From Alphaproteobacteria bacterium (lineage in GTDB: Bacteria > Pseudomonadota > Alphaproteobacteria > Micropepsales > Micropepsaceae), in NCBI GenBank assembly GCA_016125165.1, contig WGMH01000003.1, positions 744,001-808,000 of the forward strand: a DNA stretch of 64,000 nt, in the 5' to 3' direction. The notes under the pieces are model-generated. The model was given only the letters and a program-made list of their open reading frames with translations. It ran no database searches and was not told the origin of the DNA. The position numbers and the translations under genes are program-made. Every line of letters starts with the position of its first letter. Within the stretch, counting starts at the first letter, position 1. Below, in pieces: positions 49,931-52,755 of this stretch.

Positions 49931-50226
49931 GCTTTGGTGGAGATCGCGCGGAGCGCGGAGATCGTGGAGATCGCGGCGAACGCAGCGGCGGTGGCGGCGG
50001 ACAGCGCCGTCCCTTCTTCCGTCGCAAGAAGACCTGCCCCTTCTCGGGCGCCAACGCGCCCAAGATCGACTACAAGGACGTGAAGCTGCTGCAGCGCTAT
50101 ATTTCCGAGCGCGGCAAGATCGTGCCTTCGCGCATCACGGCCGTATCGACCAAGAAGCAGCGCCTGCTCGCCAATGCGATCAAGCGCGCGCGCTTCATGG
50201 CGCTGCTGCCCTATGTTGTGAAGTGA
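49927..50226 (+). CDS. rpsR: 30S ribosomal protein S18
   Basis: A 99-aa protein. A Gly/Arg/Asp-rich N-terminal extension (about 25 residues, imperfect G-D-R repeats) precedes the conserved core [26 protein letters not shown] and [14 protein letters not shown]. The extension is longer than in E. coli S18. Confidence 0.97.
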
Positions 50227-50236
50227 GGACACAGCC

Positions 50237-50821
50237 ATGCAAGTGATCCTGCTTGAACGAGTCGAAAAGCTCGGCCAGATGGGCGACGAAGTGAAGGTGA
50301 AGGACGGCTTCGCCCGCAACTTCCTCCTGCCCAAGAAGAAGGCCCTGCGCGCCACCAAGGCGAACCGCGAATATTTCCAGACCCAGAAGGCCCAGCTCGA
50401 AGCGCGCAATCTTGAGCGCAAGAGCGAAGCCCAGAAGGTCGCCGAGAAGCTGGAAGGCAAAACCTTCATGCTGCTGCGTCAGGCAGGCGATCGCGGTCAG
50501 CTTTACGGCTCGGTGAGCCCGAAGGACATCGCGGATATCATCACTGCCGCCGGGTTCTCGATCAGCCGCGGTCAGGTTCCGCTCGACAAGGCGATCAAGA
50601 ACATCGGCCTCGTTCCGGTTGTGGTGGTGCTGCACCCTGAGGTGCGCGTCACCGTCACCGTGAACGTTGCCCGTACCGAGGATGAAGCCGAGCGCCAGGC
50701 GCGCGGCGAAGACGTGCTCGCCGAACAGACAGACGCCGAGGAAGCCAAAGCGGCAGCCGAGGAACTGTTCGAAGAGGGCGCGGGTCCGAAGGAAGAGGGC
50801 GAAGAGGACGTTTCAGAGTAG
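50237..50821 (+). CDS. rplI: 50S ribosomal protein L9
   Basis: A 194-aa protein. N-terminal domain [16 protein letters not shown], the [11 protein letters not shown] hallmark, a long connecting helix, a C-terminal rRNA-binding domain, and an acidic tail of about 45 residues (Glu/Ala-rich) beyond the E. coli length. Followed by a strong terminator. Confidence 0.97.
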
Positions 50822-50858
50822 GCCGAAACGCCACATACCCTTATTGCGCATAAGAAAG

Positions 50859-50890
50859 CGGCCGGCGGAATCGCCGGCCGTTTTCGTTTC
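50859..50890 (+). terminator. rplI terminator (duplicated hairpin, copy 1)
   Basis: Perfect 9-bp GC stem (50859-50867 / 50872-50880), GAAT loop, tail TTTTCGTTTC. It lies 37 bp after rplI and 81 bp before the Shine-Dalgarno of the first short peptide gene. Downstream at 50911-50934, TTGACA-N12-TGTCAA forms an inverted repeat that may be a promoter or operator element. Confidence 0.85.
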
Positions 50891-50970
50891 CGGGTTGCAC
50901 GACTATACAATTGACATTGCTCGATTTTTGTCAAAAAAAGTTCAGTCACCATATGGAGTGGAGCAAGTCT

Positions 50971-51141
50971 GTGACCTCCCGCACACCCTTCTTGGATCAA
51001 CCTTCGGTTGACGCTCAATCTGCCCGCAACTCAGCCTCGATCCGTAAGGCTTGGGAACAACCGGTGGTCCAGCGTATTGACCTCGTCCGCGCTGAAGTCT
51101 TCAGCCTCTCACATGCCGATGGCCCTTACACCCTGAGCTAG
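50971..51141 (+). CDS. Small peptide A, RiPP-precursor-like (W-x2-P-x4-I leader motif)
   Basis: A 56-aa peptide, not matching any family I know. GTG start 50971 is chosen because GGAG lies 7 nt upstream; an in-frame ATG at 50953 lacks a ribosome site. The N-terminal half is hydrophilic (Ser/Gln/Asn-rich). Residues 28-36 are W-E-Q-P-V-V-Q-R-I, and the last 16 residues are A-E-V-F-S-L-S-H-A-D-G-P-Y-T-L-S. There is no Cys, signal peptide or TM segment. W-x2-P-x4-I has the spacing of leader motifs in PqqA and resembles lasso-type (Y/W-x2-P) precursors bound by PqqD-like RRE domains. It lacks the Glu/Tyr spacing of PqqA, so it is not PqqA. Base composition is below the local GC average. Confidence 0.6.
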   Translation: MTSRTPFLDQPSVDAQSARNSASIRKAWEQPVVQRIDLVRAEVFSLSHADGPYTLS

Positions 51142-51204
51142 CTTCCGCGCCCGGCAGTTTCCGAAGAAGCCTGATCGCCTCTTACCCGATTTGAGTATGG
51201 CAGA

Positions 51205-51238
51205 GCGGTCGGTGGAAACGCCGGCCGCTTTCGTTTCC
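51205..51238 (+). terminator. Hairpin copy 2, between the two short peptide genes
   Basis: A 10-bp stem (51205-51214 / 51219-51228) closed by a GAAA tetraloop and followed by TTTCGTTTCC. Relative to copy 1, two left-arm C-to-T changes become G-U pairs, so base pairing is kept. Likely terminates the peptide A transcript or isolates peptide B. Confidence 0.65.
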
Positions 51239-51320
51239 ATCCGTGGTCGCTATTCATCAGCCATTAATCTGGGGCATTATCTTCTGAGAACTGGAATTTC
51301 GATTCTCAATGGAGACGTAC

Positions 51321-51488
51321 GTGACGTTGCATGTGGCCGGCGCAGCTTTGCTCATCCACGAGCCCGAGCAGGGTTTTCCGAACGCCGCGCGCATGGACTG
51401 GATCAAGCCTGAGCTGCGGAGAATACCGCACGCGGCCGCCGAGACCGGCAACTTTTCCAGTGCCGATTTCACCAACGGGTTTAGCTGA
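51321..51488 (+). CDS. Small peptide B, paralogue of peptide A
   Basis: A 55-aa peptide. GTG start 51321 has GGAG 6 nt upstream, the same layout as peptide A; the in-frame ATG 51309 overlaps the Shine-Dalgarno. Residues 27-35 are W-I-K-P-E-L-R-R-I, and the last 16 residues are A-E-T-G-N-F-S-S-A-D-F-T-N-G-F-S. From Trp to the end both peptides have exactly 29 residues; ten are identical (W, P, R, I, A, E, S, A, D, S), although the codons differ widely. This pattern suggests selection on the protein. The stop is 4 bp from the convergent TPR-hydrolase gene. Confidence 0.6.
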   Translation: MTLHVAGAALLIHEPEQGFPNAARMDWIKPELRRIPHAAAETGNFSSADFTNGFS

Positions 51489-51492
51489 CGCT

Positions 51493-52755
51493 TCATACCT
51501 CTTCGAAAATATCCAACAGGTTACGGCGTCCGCGCCTCACCATTTCGGACAGGCAGTCGTGACGGTCGAATCCTTCGACCGCGTGAAGCCTCACGTTTGC
51601 AAGACCCGCAACGTTGGCGGCATGCATTCTGTCCAGGCGCACACCGGGGCTGAAAAAGATTTCAATGCGCGGACGATGCTTCGCATCGCGGATTAAATGA
51701 TAGAGGTTCCTCATCATTGGACGCACATGCGCCCGCAGGCGCTGGATCGTAAATGCGCTGCGCGCGGTGGCGAAGTTGGCATTCTCCGGCATGTGGGTCT
51801 GCGTGCCGAACACGATCGCGCCGAAGGCTTCCAGATCGAGCGCGGCGCGGATTGCGGTATAGCCGGTGGCCGAACCACCCACGGTGACGACCCGTTTGAC
51901 CCCCAGCTCTTTCGCCAGCGCCTTGATACCGTCCAGCATCGTCTGCCAGCCGGGGCCGAACCGGTCCGTGCCCGCCAGATGGAAGACCTGCTTGCTGTCA
52001 TAGAGATAAAGCGCATTCACCCCCGTCGAAGACAGAAGCGCATGGAACCCGTTCAGAGGAACGCCAAGCGCGCTTGAGGGCAGCGCGAAGCCTACGACGA
52101 GCGTGTCTGATGAAGGCTCGCGCACGAGTATGGAATTTCGCGCAGGCGAAACCCATCCCGGGATATCCGCACCGCCCTTCGCGCGGCGCTCTTCGACAAC
52201 ATCCAGCACGGCCAGACTGCATTTCGCGTTCCAGCCGAACGCAGGATGATCTTCGATCCGGCGCATACCAGCGCGTGCGGCTTCGAAACGGTTTTCGCCC
52301 AGAAGATAGGCGGCGGCCTGATAGACTTTGTTCGGCGATGCGCCGGGATCGGCCACGATGGCTTCGGCATCGGCCACCGGCGCATTCGTGCGGCCAAGAC
52401 GCGCGAAGCGCAGCAGCGCCAATTCCAGCTCTTCATCCACAATCCCACGATCAAAAGCATCTTGAACGGTCTTGATGCCTTCTTCCACATCGCCGCGTTC
52501 ACGCAAGGCCTGCGCGATCTTGTTTGGCCAGGCGGGATTGGAGGGTTCCGCCTGCTCGACCTCTCGCCAATACCTGATGGCCTCGTCCGCCGCGCCATGC
52601 CACCAGGCATAGGACGCTTGCAGTTTCGTTTTATCGAGGCCGGTGGCGCGCGTGATCGCGCGCCGGCGCGAGGCCTCCTGCAGGGGAACGACGGTGTGGT
52701 TGCGAACGCGCAGCATTCCAAAGATGAACGCAAAGGTCAGGCGGGTCAGCGCCAT
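51493..52755 (-). CDS. TPR-alpha/beta-hydrolase fusion protein of unknown function
   Basis: A 420-aa protein. The N-terminal half (about 30-190) has TPR-like helices (W-W-H-G-A-A-D-E-A-I-R-Y-W, then R-G-D-V-E-E-G-I). The C-terminal half has an alpha/beta-hydrolase core: L-V-V-G-F-A-L-P, the nucleophile elbow V-G-G-S-A-T-G-Y near residue 290, and a likely catalytic His in G-F-D-R-H-D-C-L near the end. No signal peptide is evident. TPR-hydrolase fusions of this sort occur in glycan/capsule loci, but the local context (two small peptides, corA) does not tell. It converges on the small-peptide array with a 4-bp gap. Confidence 0.7.
   Translation of the reverse strand: MALTRLTFAFIFGMLRVRNHTVVPLQEASRRRAITRATGLDKTKLQASYAWWHGAADEAIRYWREVEQAEPSNPAWPNKIAQALRERGDVEEGIKTVQDAFDRGIVDEELELALLRFARLGRTNAPVADAEAIVADPGASPNKVYQAAAYLLGENRFEAARAGMRRIEDHPAFGWNAKCSLAVLDVVEERRAKGGADIPGWVSPARNSILVREPSSDTLVVGFALPSSALGVPLNGFHALLSSTGVNALYLYDSKQVFHLAGTDRFGPGWQTMLDGIKALAKELGVKRVVTVGGSATGYTAIRAALDLEAFGAIVFGTQTHMPENANFATARSAFTIQRLRAHVRPMMRNLYHLIRDAKHRPRIEIFFSPGVRLDRMHAANVAGLANVRLHAVEGFDRHDCLSEMVRRGRRNLLDIFEEV

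Follow-up and report, generated by a model that had tools for sequence, protein, structure and literature searches.

The 64,000-nucleotide stretch of DNA analysed here (referred to as the window; positions 744,001 to 808,000 of contig WGMH01000003.1, assembly GCA_016125165.1, from a member of the Alphaproteobacteria) contains behind the rplI gene a tandem pair of genes for small peptides, peptides 1 and 2, and, converging upon the second of them, a gene for an enzyme-like protein which we will refer to as the partner gene. We consider it moderately probable that the two peptides are orphan precursors of ribosomally synthesized and post-translationally modified peptides (RiPPs) that depend upon a RiPP recognition element (RRE), are probably of the lasso type (paeninodin-like), are matured in trans and are accompanied by a partner enzyme. 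The lasso topology is suggested by analogy, and the window peptides are not claimed to be proven lasso peptides. A RiPP-type leader read by a PqqD-like RRE, with orphan precursors served in trans, had been proposed in the first-pass annotation of this DNA, and the RRE, B2 peptidase, HprK-like kinase and lasso-cyclase-like genes that were found elsewhere in the genome, none of them near the pair, lend support to that proposal.

The peptide pair behind rplI and its convergent partner gene

The features of this region are as follows.

50237..50821, + strand: rplI (50S ribosomal protein L9), an open reading frame and the conserved upstream neighbour of the peptide pair
50858..50880, + strand: hairpin 1, G+C-rich and terminator-like, after rplI; repeated in the sequence at +347
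50953..51141, + strand: peptide 1 (P0001), leader W-E-Q-P, Trp codon at 51052, stop at 51139
51097..51138, + strand: predicted core of peptide 1, 14 residues with Asp at core position 8 and C-terminal Ser, placed by a Trp at -15
51205..51227, + strand: hairpin 2, between the two peptide genes, the 347-bp repeat of hairpin 1 in the sequence
51309..51488, + strand: peptide 2 (P0002), leader W-I-K-P, Trp codon at 51399, stop at 51486
51444..51485, + strand: predicted core of peptide 2, 14 residues with Asp at core position 8 and C-terminal Ser, placed in the same manner
51493..52755, - strand: partner gene (P0003), 420 aa, N-terminal TPR-like helices and a C-terminal alpha/beta-hydrolase domain

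The two units had been described as repeating with a constant offset of 347 bp, and this offset is exact at the hairpins (50858/51205), the Trp codons (51052/51399) and the stops (51139/51486). Peptide 1 may start at a GTG (50971, 56 aa) that follows a GGAG or at an in-frame ATG (50953, 62 aa), and the corresponding options for peptide 2 are a GTG after GGAG at 51321 (55 aa) and an ATG at 51309 (59 aa). The GGAG-GTG starts of 56 and 55 codons, the shared R-x2-W-x2-P, R-I, Ala-Glu pair (positions 14-15 counted from the Trp) and Ala-Asp pair (positions 22-23), and the equal length from Trp to end (29 residues in both) agree with the earlier description, as does the divergence of the underlying DNA. 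At the 347-bp offset, identity in blocks of 30 bp is 63% and 77% in the hairpin blocks, 53% in the next block, only 10-27% over 50911-51030, and 33-60% from 51031 onward; at the protein level, 10 of 30 residues are identical when the Trp and the residue before it are included.

A strict pattern (W-x2-P, Asp/Glu and C-terminal Ser at this spacing) was matched twice in the window, by peptides 1 and 2, where 60 simulated 64-kb sequences gave a mean of 0.18 matches per sequence; a looser pattern consisting of W-x2-P and C-terminal Ser was matched three times versus 1.2 expected. As about nine chance matches of the strict pattern correspond to this rate in a 3-Mb genome, the pattern alone is insufficient, and the claim is carried by the profile, the synteny and the partner gene. 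Neither peptide has a match at E <= 1 in NCBIfam or Pfam, and PADLOC gave no match for peptides 1 and 2 or for the partner gene product. The one terminator site in a consensus scan is on the - strand (50880-50859), neither hairpin being called on the + strand, and a consensus scan of the pair region gave no promoter. The Rfam matches in 50200-51700 were all below threshold; the best of them, to the sX6 sRNA (20.9 bits versus a gathering score of 40), covers 50718-50904 and thus spans the end of rplI and hairpin 1.

The position of peptide 2 is conserved among related genomes (designated G, this genome being G000, with C for their contigs and L for fetched loci). The order rplI-peptide-partner is present in four genomes, viz. 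this one, G021 (C2), G028 and G070 (4423 kb), and the rplI homologues near a family peptide in L092, L097, and L120 show 79-83% identity (161 aa). It had been expected that the reading frame and the W, P and I residues would be conserved behind rplI; the frame, the Trp and the Pro are indeed kept in the three other genomes, but the Ile is replaced by Leu, Leu, and Arg. Peptide 2 and its counterparts in G021, G028, and G070 further retain ETGxxS[ST][AT]DxxxxFS, and no counterpart of peptide 1 was seen at the rplI loci of G021 C2, G028, and G070. The differences at the three codon positions, summed over 10 pairs of rplI-linked peptides, are 133, 126, and 169, a weak excess at the third position.

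The account of this locus in the first-pass annotation had omitted the partner gene, which is convergent with peptide 2 and ends 4 bp from its stop. The predicted structure of its product (pLDDT 87.5) was found by Foldseek to combine TPR-like helices with an alpha/beta-hydrolase domain, the TPR models themselves scoring under their cut-offs. With VIA-align, Z values of about 15-16 (about 15 to esterases) were obtained over approximately 200 residues, the root-mean-square deviation being 3.2-4.2 for most of the rows shown. Ser295, Asp375, His378, and His399 are invariant in eight homologues, and the protein is predicted to be a serine-type alpha/beta hydrolase based upon its fold, the invariant Ser295 at the nucleophile position and His399. 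The structure comparison had the Gap123 glycosylation complex as its best row and also listed a capsule O-acetyltransferase, so that acyl transfer is as open as hydrolysis.

Across 60 genomes from the genus there are eight close homologues of the partner protein (>200 bits; two in this genome, three in G021, one in G028, and two in G070), and all eight adjoin family peptides. For seven of them a family peptide lies tail-to-tail at the 3' end, with a gap of about 10 bp or less or a slight overlap in six cases and of about 180 bp in G021 C2. For the eighth (in G070), two peptides lie on the 5' side. Weak homologues (42-45 bits) are present in G003, G012, and G078, with no family peptide recognised beside them. 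Outside the genus, a contig scan with one short pattern gave three records of the assembly of G021 and two distant Azospirillum loci, and three records, one from Novosphingobium and two from Azospirillum, came from a plasmid collection and are 24-30% identical to the protein across one half to two thirds of its length. The two partner-like loci from outside the genus that were examined lie among polysaccharide/glycosyltransferase and type I secretion genes.

A dispersed peptide family with lasso-type features

The pair reported in the first-pass annotation is real, but it forms part of a dispersed family which has at least 12 read members in this genome. The first further copy was found at C8:666 kb with peptide 1 as the query (E 0.10; sequence read), and pattern scans of the fetched loci revealed additional copies at C8:659 kb and C11:81 kb, as well as peptides in G009 and G032. 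Profile A1, consisting of these seven sequences, was run on 60 genomes of the genus and gave further matches in this genome (E 4.5e-4 to 0.078), G021, G027, G028, G070, G009, and G076; among the members not included in it, those from G021 (E 3.0e-7), G027 (1.4e-5), and G070 (1.7e-5) were recovered. Profile A3, based upon 36 sequences, was applied to 69 genomes from the genus, scoring being capped at 100 candidates in each; under this limit 14 of them had a match at E <= 0.01 and 55 had none. Peptides 1 and 2, which are themselves part of A3, match it with E 2.1e-13 and 2.1e-14, respectively. After reading of the sequences, at least 44 members were accepted in 10 of the 69 genomes: at least 12 in this genome, at least 10 in G070, at least nine in G021, four in G028, two each in G009, G076, and G085, and one each in G027, G032, and G077. 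Eight of the 44 are outside A3 and score E 5.6e-7 to 0.004 against it.

A number of candidates did not enter this count. The A3 matches in G003, G082, G089, and G072 were rejected, being inside other reading frames or lacking the pattern; rows within frames of 223-475 aa (G021, G070, G003, G082, G089, G027) were not counted; and the pattern was absent on reading from the G027 4085900 and G072 rows. The count also leaves out rows whose sequences were unread, namely C11:50515 and C13:278778 of this genome, 470783 and 4273447 of G070, and C7, C9:167566, C5, C6:65327, C8, and C33 of G021. A fragment at C67:62162-62221 of G009 (L151) was dropped, the leader motif being absent from its frame; it has the conserved ETGILFGPEILILLS end and lies about 0.2 kb from an RRE gene. 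When peptide 2 alone was searched against 61 genomes, 31 of them gave a match at E <= 1, from which rows of this genome and G009, and later of G032 and G028 C2, were kept; 13 loci from the single-sequence searches were read besides the window, every fetched locus was scanned with the pattern, and the remaining matches were set aside as chance.

The conserved positions of the 44 members, numbered from the Trp, resemble those of lasso precursors. Position 1 is Trp in 41 and Tyr in three, and Pro4 is present in all 44; both W and P are biased by selection, as the profiles and regular expressions required them. One regular expression also required a terminal Ser, Thr, or Ala; apart from the profile weights, no requirement was placed on positions 14 and 23 or, in most rows, on the terminal Ser. 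Position 6 is Leu, Phe, Val, or Ile in 40/44 (otherwise Trp, Cys, or Met), position 9 is Ile, Leu, or Val in 35/44, and the leaders fit the motif [Y/W]xxPx[L/V/I/A/F/Y], which is described as bound by discrete lasso RREs (PMC13381572). Position 14 is Ala in 34, Ser in six, and Thr in four members, position 15 is Glu in 29/44, position 23 is Asp in 28 and Glu in 10, the C-terminal residue is Ser in 42/44, and 36/44 members count 28 or 29 residues from the Trp to the end.

In PbaA, the leader of which is paeninodin-like, the Trp is reported at -15 (PMC13381572). Transferred to this family, it would make position 14 equal to -2, position 23 equal to core position 8, and the core 14 residues long, rather than the 16 residues that had been proposed earlier. 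An acidic residue would then be present at core position 8 in 38/44 members, within the range of core positions 7-9 that is given for the lasso acceptor Asp/Glu (PMC10368454), the core start being itself predicted; as position 17 is Gly in 20/44, the core start could also be shifted. A C-terminal Ser is described as extremely conserved in precursors whose clusters carry a homologous kinase gene, and a Sphingobium kinase as polyphosphorylating it (PMC9266682). Both elements of this paeninodin-type combination are present here, the Ser in 42/44 members and HprK-like kinase genes at three loci of this genome (A, B, and D, below).

A sample of 385 genomes of the class was also searched, with at most 17 candidates scored per genome; matches at E <= 1e-5 were obtained in at least six, of which four do not belong to the genus. 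In G110 the peptide lies between asparagine-synthase-like and sulfotransferase-like frames (named by eye), and in G162 the pattern is present and no lasso-type gene was seen in the 3 kb of its locus. Tandem arrays of six peptides in G100 C2 (L158, 854-2889) and of three in G228 C2 (L157, 200-1626) all have, by eye, Thr at position 14, Asp at position 23, and a terminal Ser (9/9), W/Y-x2-P and a terminal Ser, Thr, or Ala having been search criteria for them; G100 and G228 are genomes of 6.2-6.3 Mb from another family.

Some further features of individual members were noted. Additional tandem pairs are present at L077 3403-3692 (C8 of this genome), where the two peptides have a common GIF-x-EHT core segment, at L081 3196-3638 (C7) and in L099 (G070). 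An orphan peptide at L079 3657-3863 (C13) is located between rpoA-like and DegP-like genes and, like the pair behind rplI, sits behind a ribosomal-type operon (genes named by eye).

Putative maturation genes elsewhere in the genome

Three PqqD-family RREs (PF05402) over the Pfam cut-off and three B2 peptidase genes are present in this genome, together with at least three HprK-like kinases and at least two lasso-cyclase-like proteins, the latter two groups having been met at RRE, B2, or peptide loci and not by a genome-wide search. Their locations are as follows.

Locus A, C2:779 kb: cyclase-like protein, RRE, B2, HprK-like kinase, sulfotransferase, and local YxxP small open reading frames
Locus B, C8:144 kb (L045 8509-11055, C8:143.5-146 kb): HprK-like kinase, RRE, methyltransferase; no B2 or cyclase gene seen at the locus
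Locus C, C11:19 kb: B2, ABC exporter, NTP_transf_5
Locus D, C11:81 kb: RRE, B2, HprK-like kinase, and a WxxP member of the peptide family
C7:99 kb: a further cyclase-like gene, after two family members

The cyclase-like protein of locus A matches NF033535 with E 1.9e-94, which is under the cut-off of that model, and the one at C7 shows 49-51% identity to cyclase-like proteins that are near RRE/B2 genes in G009, G027, and G070. The His/GxGK/Asp-Asp motif described for lasso kinases (PMC10368454, PMC9266682) is present in all three kinase-like genes (loci A, B, and D), whose best family models are under cut-off except for PF07475 at locus D. Within the lasso-type cluster of locus A (L044 4980-11615; C2:775-782 kb) some of the YxxP small open reading frames end in GPS or GPT, and at L047 9462-11270 (C11:81-83 kb) an NTP transferase fused to a CobD-like enzyme dependent on pyridoxal phosphate (PLP) adjoins the RRE, B2, and kinase. 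Locus B is possibly a locus for linear phospho- or methyl-peptides; a PADLOC mad2 match of its methyltransferase (5e-15) was read as reflecting a shared methyltransferase fold.

Peptides 1 and 2 are not clustered with a B2 peptidase or lasso cyclase: the nearest RRE, the only one on their contig, is 650 kb away, and the B2 search found no B2 on this contig. An RRE or B2 lies no more than 10 kb away from 11/44 members. In G009 C76 and G027 a member is followed directly by RRE and cyclase-like genes, B2 being about 0.6 kb distant; members of G028 (C1:933 kb) and G070 (24 kb) are within 0.3 kb of an RRE, and those of G032, G009 C31, and G070 (4516 kb) within 4 kb of both RRE and B2. For the other 33 the contig shows no RRE or B2 match inside this distance; in at least four of these cases a contig end lies nearer than 10 kb. 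B2 was found in 9/10 peptide genomes versus 3/59 others (Fisher 4e-8) and RRE in 10/10 versus 13/59 (Fisher 3e-6), relatedness not being corrected for in either comparison.

From the observed motif, peptide family, genes, and linkage we infer a route of RRE binding, phosphorylation, cleavage, ring closure, and threading. A PqqD-type RRE encoded elsewhere in the genome would capture the leader W-x2-P-x-[L/V]-x2-[I/L], and an HprK-like kinase would phosphorylate the C-terminal Ser. The B2 peptidase would then cleave after position 15, making the small residue (Ala, Ser, Thr) at position 14 the -2 residue, and an asparagine-synthase-like cyclase, such as that at C7:99 kb, would close an eight-residue ring onto the Asp/Glu at core position 8. 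The partner enzyme would be dedicated to its peptide, and may remove or add an acyl-type group, linearise the peptide, or protect the producer. FusB1, an actinobacterial lasso RRE, is reported to have also bound non-cognate leaders (PMC13381572), and promiscuity of this type would suit a single set of RREs serving many leaders.

Relation to known systems and alternative explanations

The closest known systems are the paeninodin-like lasso peptides (PadeA, PbaA, and SyanA of Sphingobium), which resemble this family in the WxxP leader, HprK-like kinase, discrete RRE, and C-terminal Ser; in them this Ser is described as the phosphorylation site and the Trp lies at -15 in PbaA (PMC9266682, PMC10368454, PMC13381572). 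In contrast to them, most precursors here are away from RRE and B2, and several observations weigh against the assignment. The -2 residue is mostly Ala, where Thr, rarely Ile or Val, and Ala as a prediction only are described (PMC10368454); the arrays of G100 and G228 have Thr. Core position 1 as predicted is variable (position 16: T 11, L 11, V 5, A 5, S 3, N 3, and F 2 are among the commonest of 44) rather than the usual Gly, and Asp/Glu is absent from position 23 in six members. At the position of Asn33 of LppB, where Bacillota paeninodin-like RREs are reported to have Gly (PMC13381572), the RREs of this genome carry Asn (loci A and B) or Asp (locus D), the residue having been read from alignments with 9x90 and 9x8z for loci B and D and by eye for locus A. 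All cyclase-like proteins are under the NF033535 cut-off; G085 holds two members and one RRE with no B2 match, and B2 occurs in G062, G006, and G025 without an accepted member. The profile searches are circular for sequences within the profile, W and P having been selected for, and the C2, C13, and C7:98995 members of this genome scored just 0.004-0.078 with A1 before their inclusion. Lastly, the peptides are not covered by any NCBIfam or Pfam model: a search of the 36 A3 members gave only isolated weak matches, the best of them at E 0.023, at which the NCBIfam paeninodin model NF033524 matched one member, with no other at E <= 0.1. The assessment is tempered slightly by the kinases and cyclases having been met at loci and by several of the counts being lower bounds.

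The alternative that survives best, which we nevertheless regard as unlikely, is that the orphans belong to linear phosphorylated RiPPs, similar to the LPP of Bacillota, which would use the same RRE, kinase, and nucleotidyltransferase toolkit and would never be macrocyclised, their Ser being (poly)phosphorylated and perhaps glycosylated. LPPs with a core of RRE, HprK-like kinase, NTP transferase, and exporter are known (PMC13381572), at locus B an RRE and an HprK-like kinase accompany a methyltransferase and neither B2 nor a cyclase was seen, and core position 1, variable and seldom Gly, is of the kind that a linear peptide could have. However, a linear peptide has no need of the acidic residue at position 23 (38/44) and this alternative does not account for a small residue at position 14 in 44/44; some members adjoin B2 and lasso-cyclase-like genes, which as such distinguish this genome from the LPP systems, and the published LPP consensus YxxPxVLxHQxIxFETxxS is a misfit for the family peptides.

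It is improbable that the orphan copies are relics, i.e., decaying duplicates whose maturation has been lost. When the 12 copies of this genome were compared with 500-base flanks on each side, DNA was shared only by tandem neighbours and by the P1/P2 duplicate, an observation which would agree with old, decaying copies and by which no transposable unit (mobile-element spread) is visible; the G009 fragment without a leader motif in frame points in the same direction. Decay is argued against by the retention of the terminal Ser in 42/44 and of a Trp-to-end length of 28-29 in 36/44 (open frames having been partly selected for), by the conserved ETGxxS[ST][AT]DxxxxFS of the rplI-linked counterparts in four genomes, and by the retention of the partner gene alongside the peptides. 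Still less probable is that the peptides are not RiPPs but small proteins acting directly with the TPR-hydrolase as a two-gene regulator or toxin-antitoxin-like pair, as the tail-to-tail linkage of 7/8 close partner homologues could suggest, since, among the genomes in which the partner was sought, 32/42 members lack an adjoining close homologue of it (peptide 1 and both G070 297 kb peptides being taken as partnered and the two members of G085 left out), several adjoin lasso-type enzymes, and PADLOC does not match the window peptides or the partner.

Returning to the reading of the pair as lasso-type precursors matured in trans, its individual elements have counterparts in other systems. PqqA has a similar leader spacing (W-x2-P-x4-L) and PqqD is of the same RRE superfamily (PF05402), while PqqA differs from the family peptides in its Glu/Tyr cross-linking core and radical-SAM maturase. 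The lasso isopeptidases AtxE1/AtxE2 and SpI-IsoP resemble the partner protein as hydrolases whose gene accompanies, and which are specific for, one lasso peptide (PMC9266682). They are prolyl-oligopeptidase-like proteins with a beta-propeller, whereas the partner protein, for which a peptide substrate is only proposed, has TPR-like helices before its alpha/beta-hydrolase domain. Precursor genes distant from the maturase genes are described for heterocycloanthracins (PMC4603692) and service of the precursors by one promiscuous enzyme for prochlorosins (PMC10783134), the chemistry of both (azoles and lanthionines, respectively) being different.

RRE-read precursors with a phosphorylated C-terminal Ser are already known. 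Our searches of open-access literature showed no report in which precursors of this kind are dispersed through a genome at a distance from their enzymes, and none of a TPR-hydrolase partner. Genome mining for lasso peptides and related RiPPs usually seeks precursors beside their enzymes, and the 33/44 precursors without an RRE or B2 within 10 kb would be missed by it. The system would allow testing of how one RRE/kinase set serves many dispersed substrates, and the partner gene points to an unstudied kind of peptide-linked hydrolase. We tentatively suggest that this genome may possess a genome-wide, trans-served repertoire of lasso or phospho-peptides, in which a dozen unlinked and locally controlled precursors would share a split set of maturases distributed among several loci and some would have a tail-to-tail TPR-hydrolase that edits or destroys the cognate peptide. 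If this is true, one machinery would make several signals with separate off-switches.

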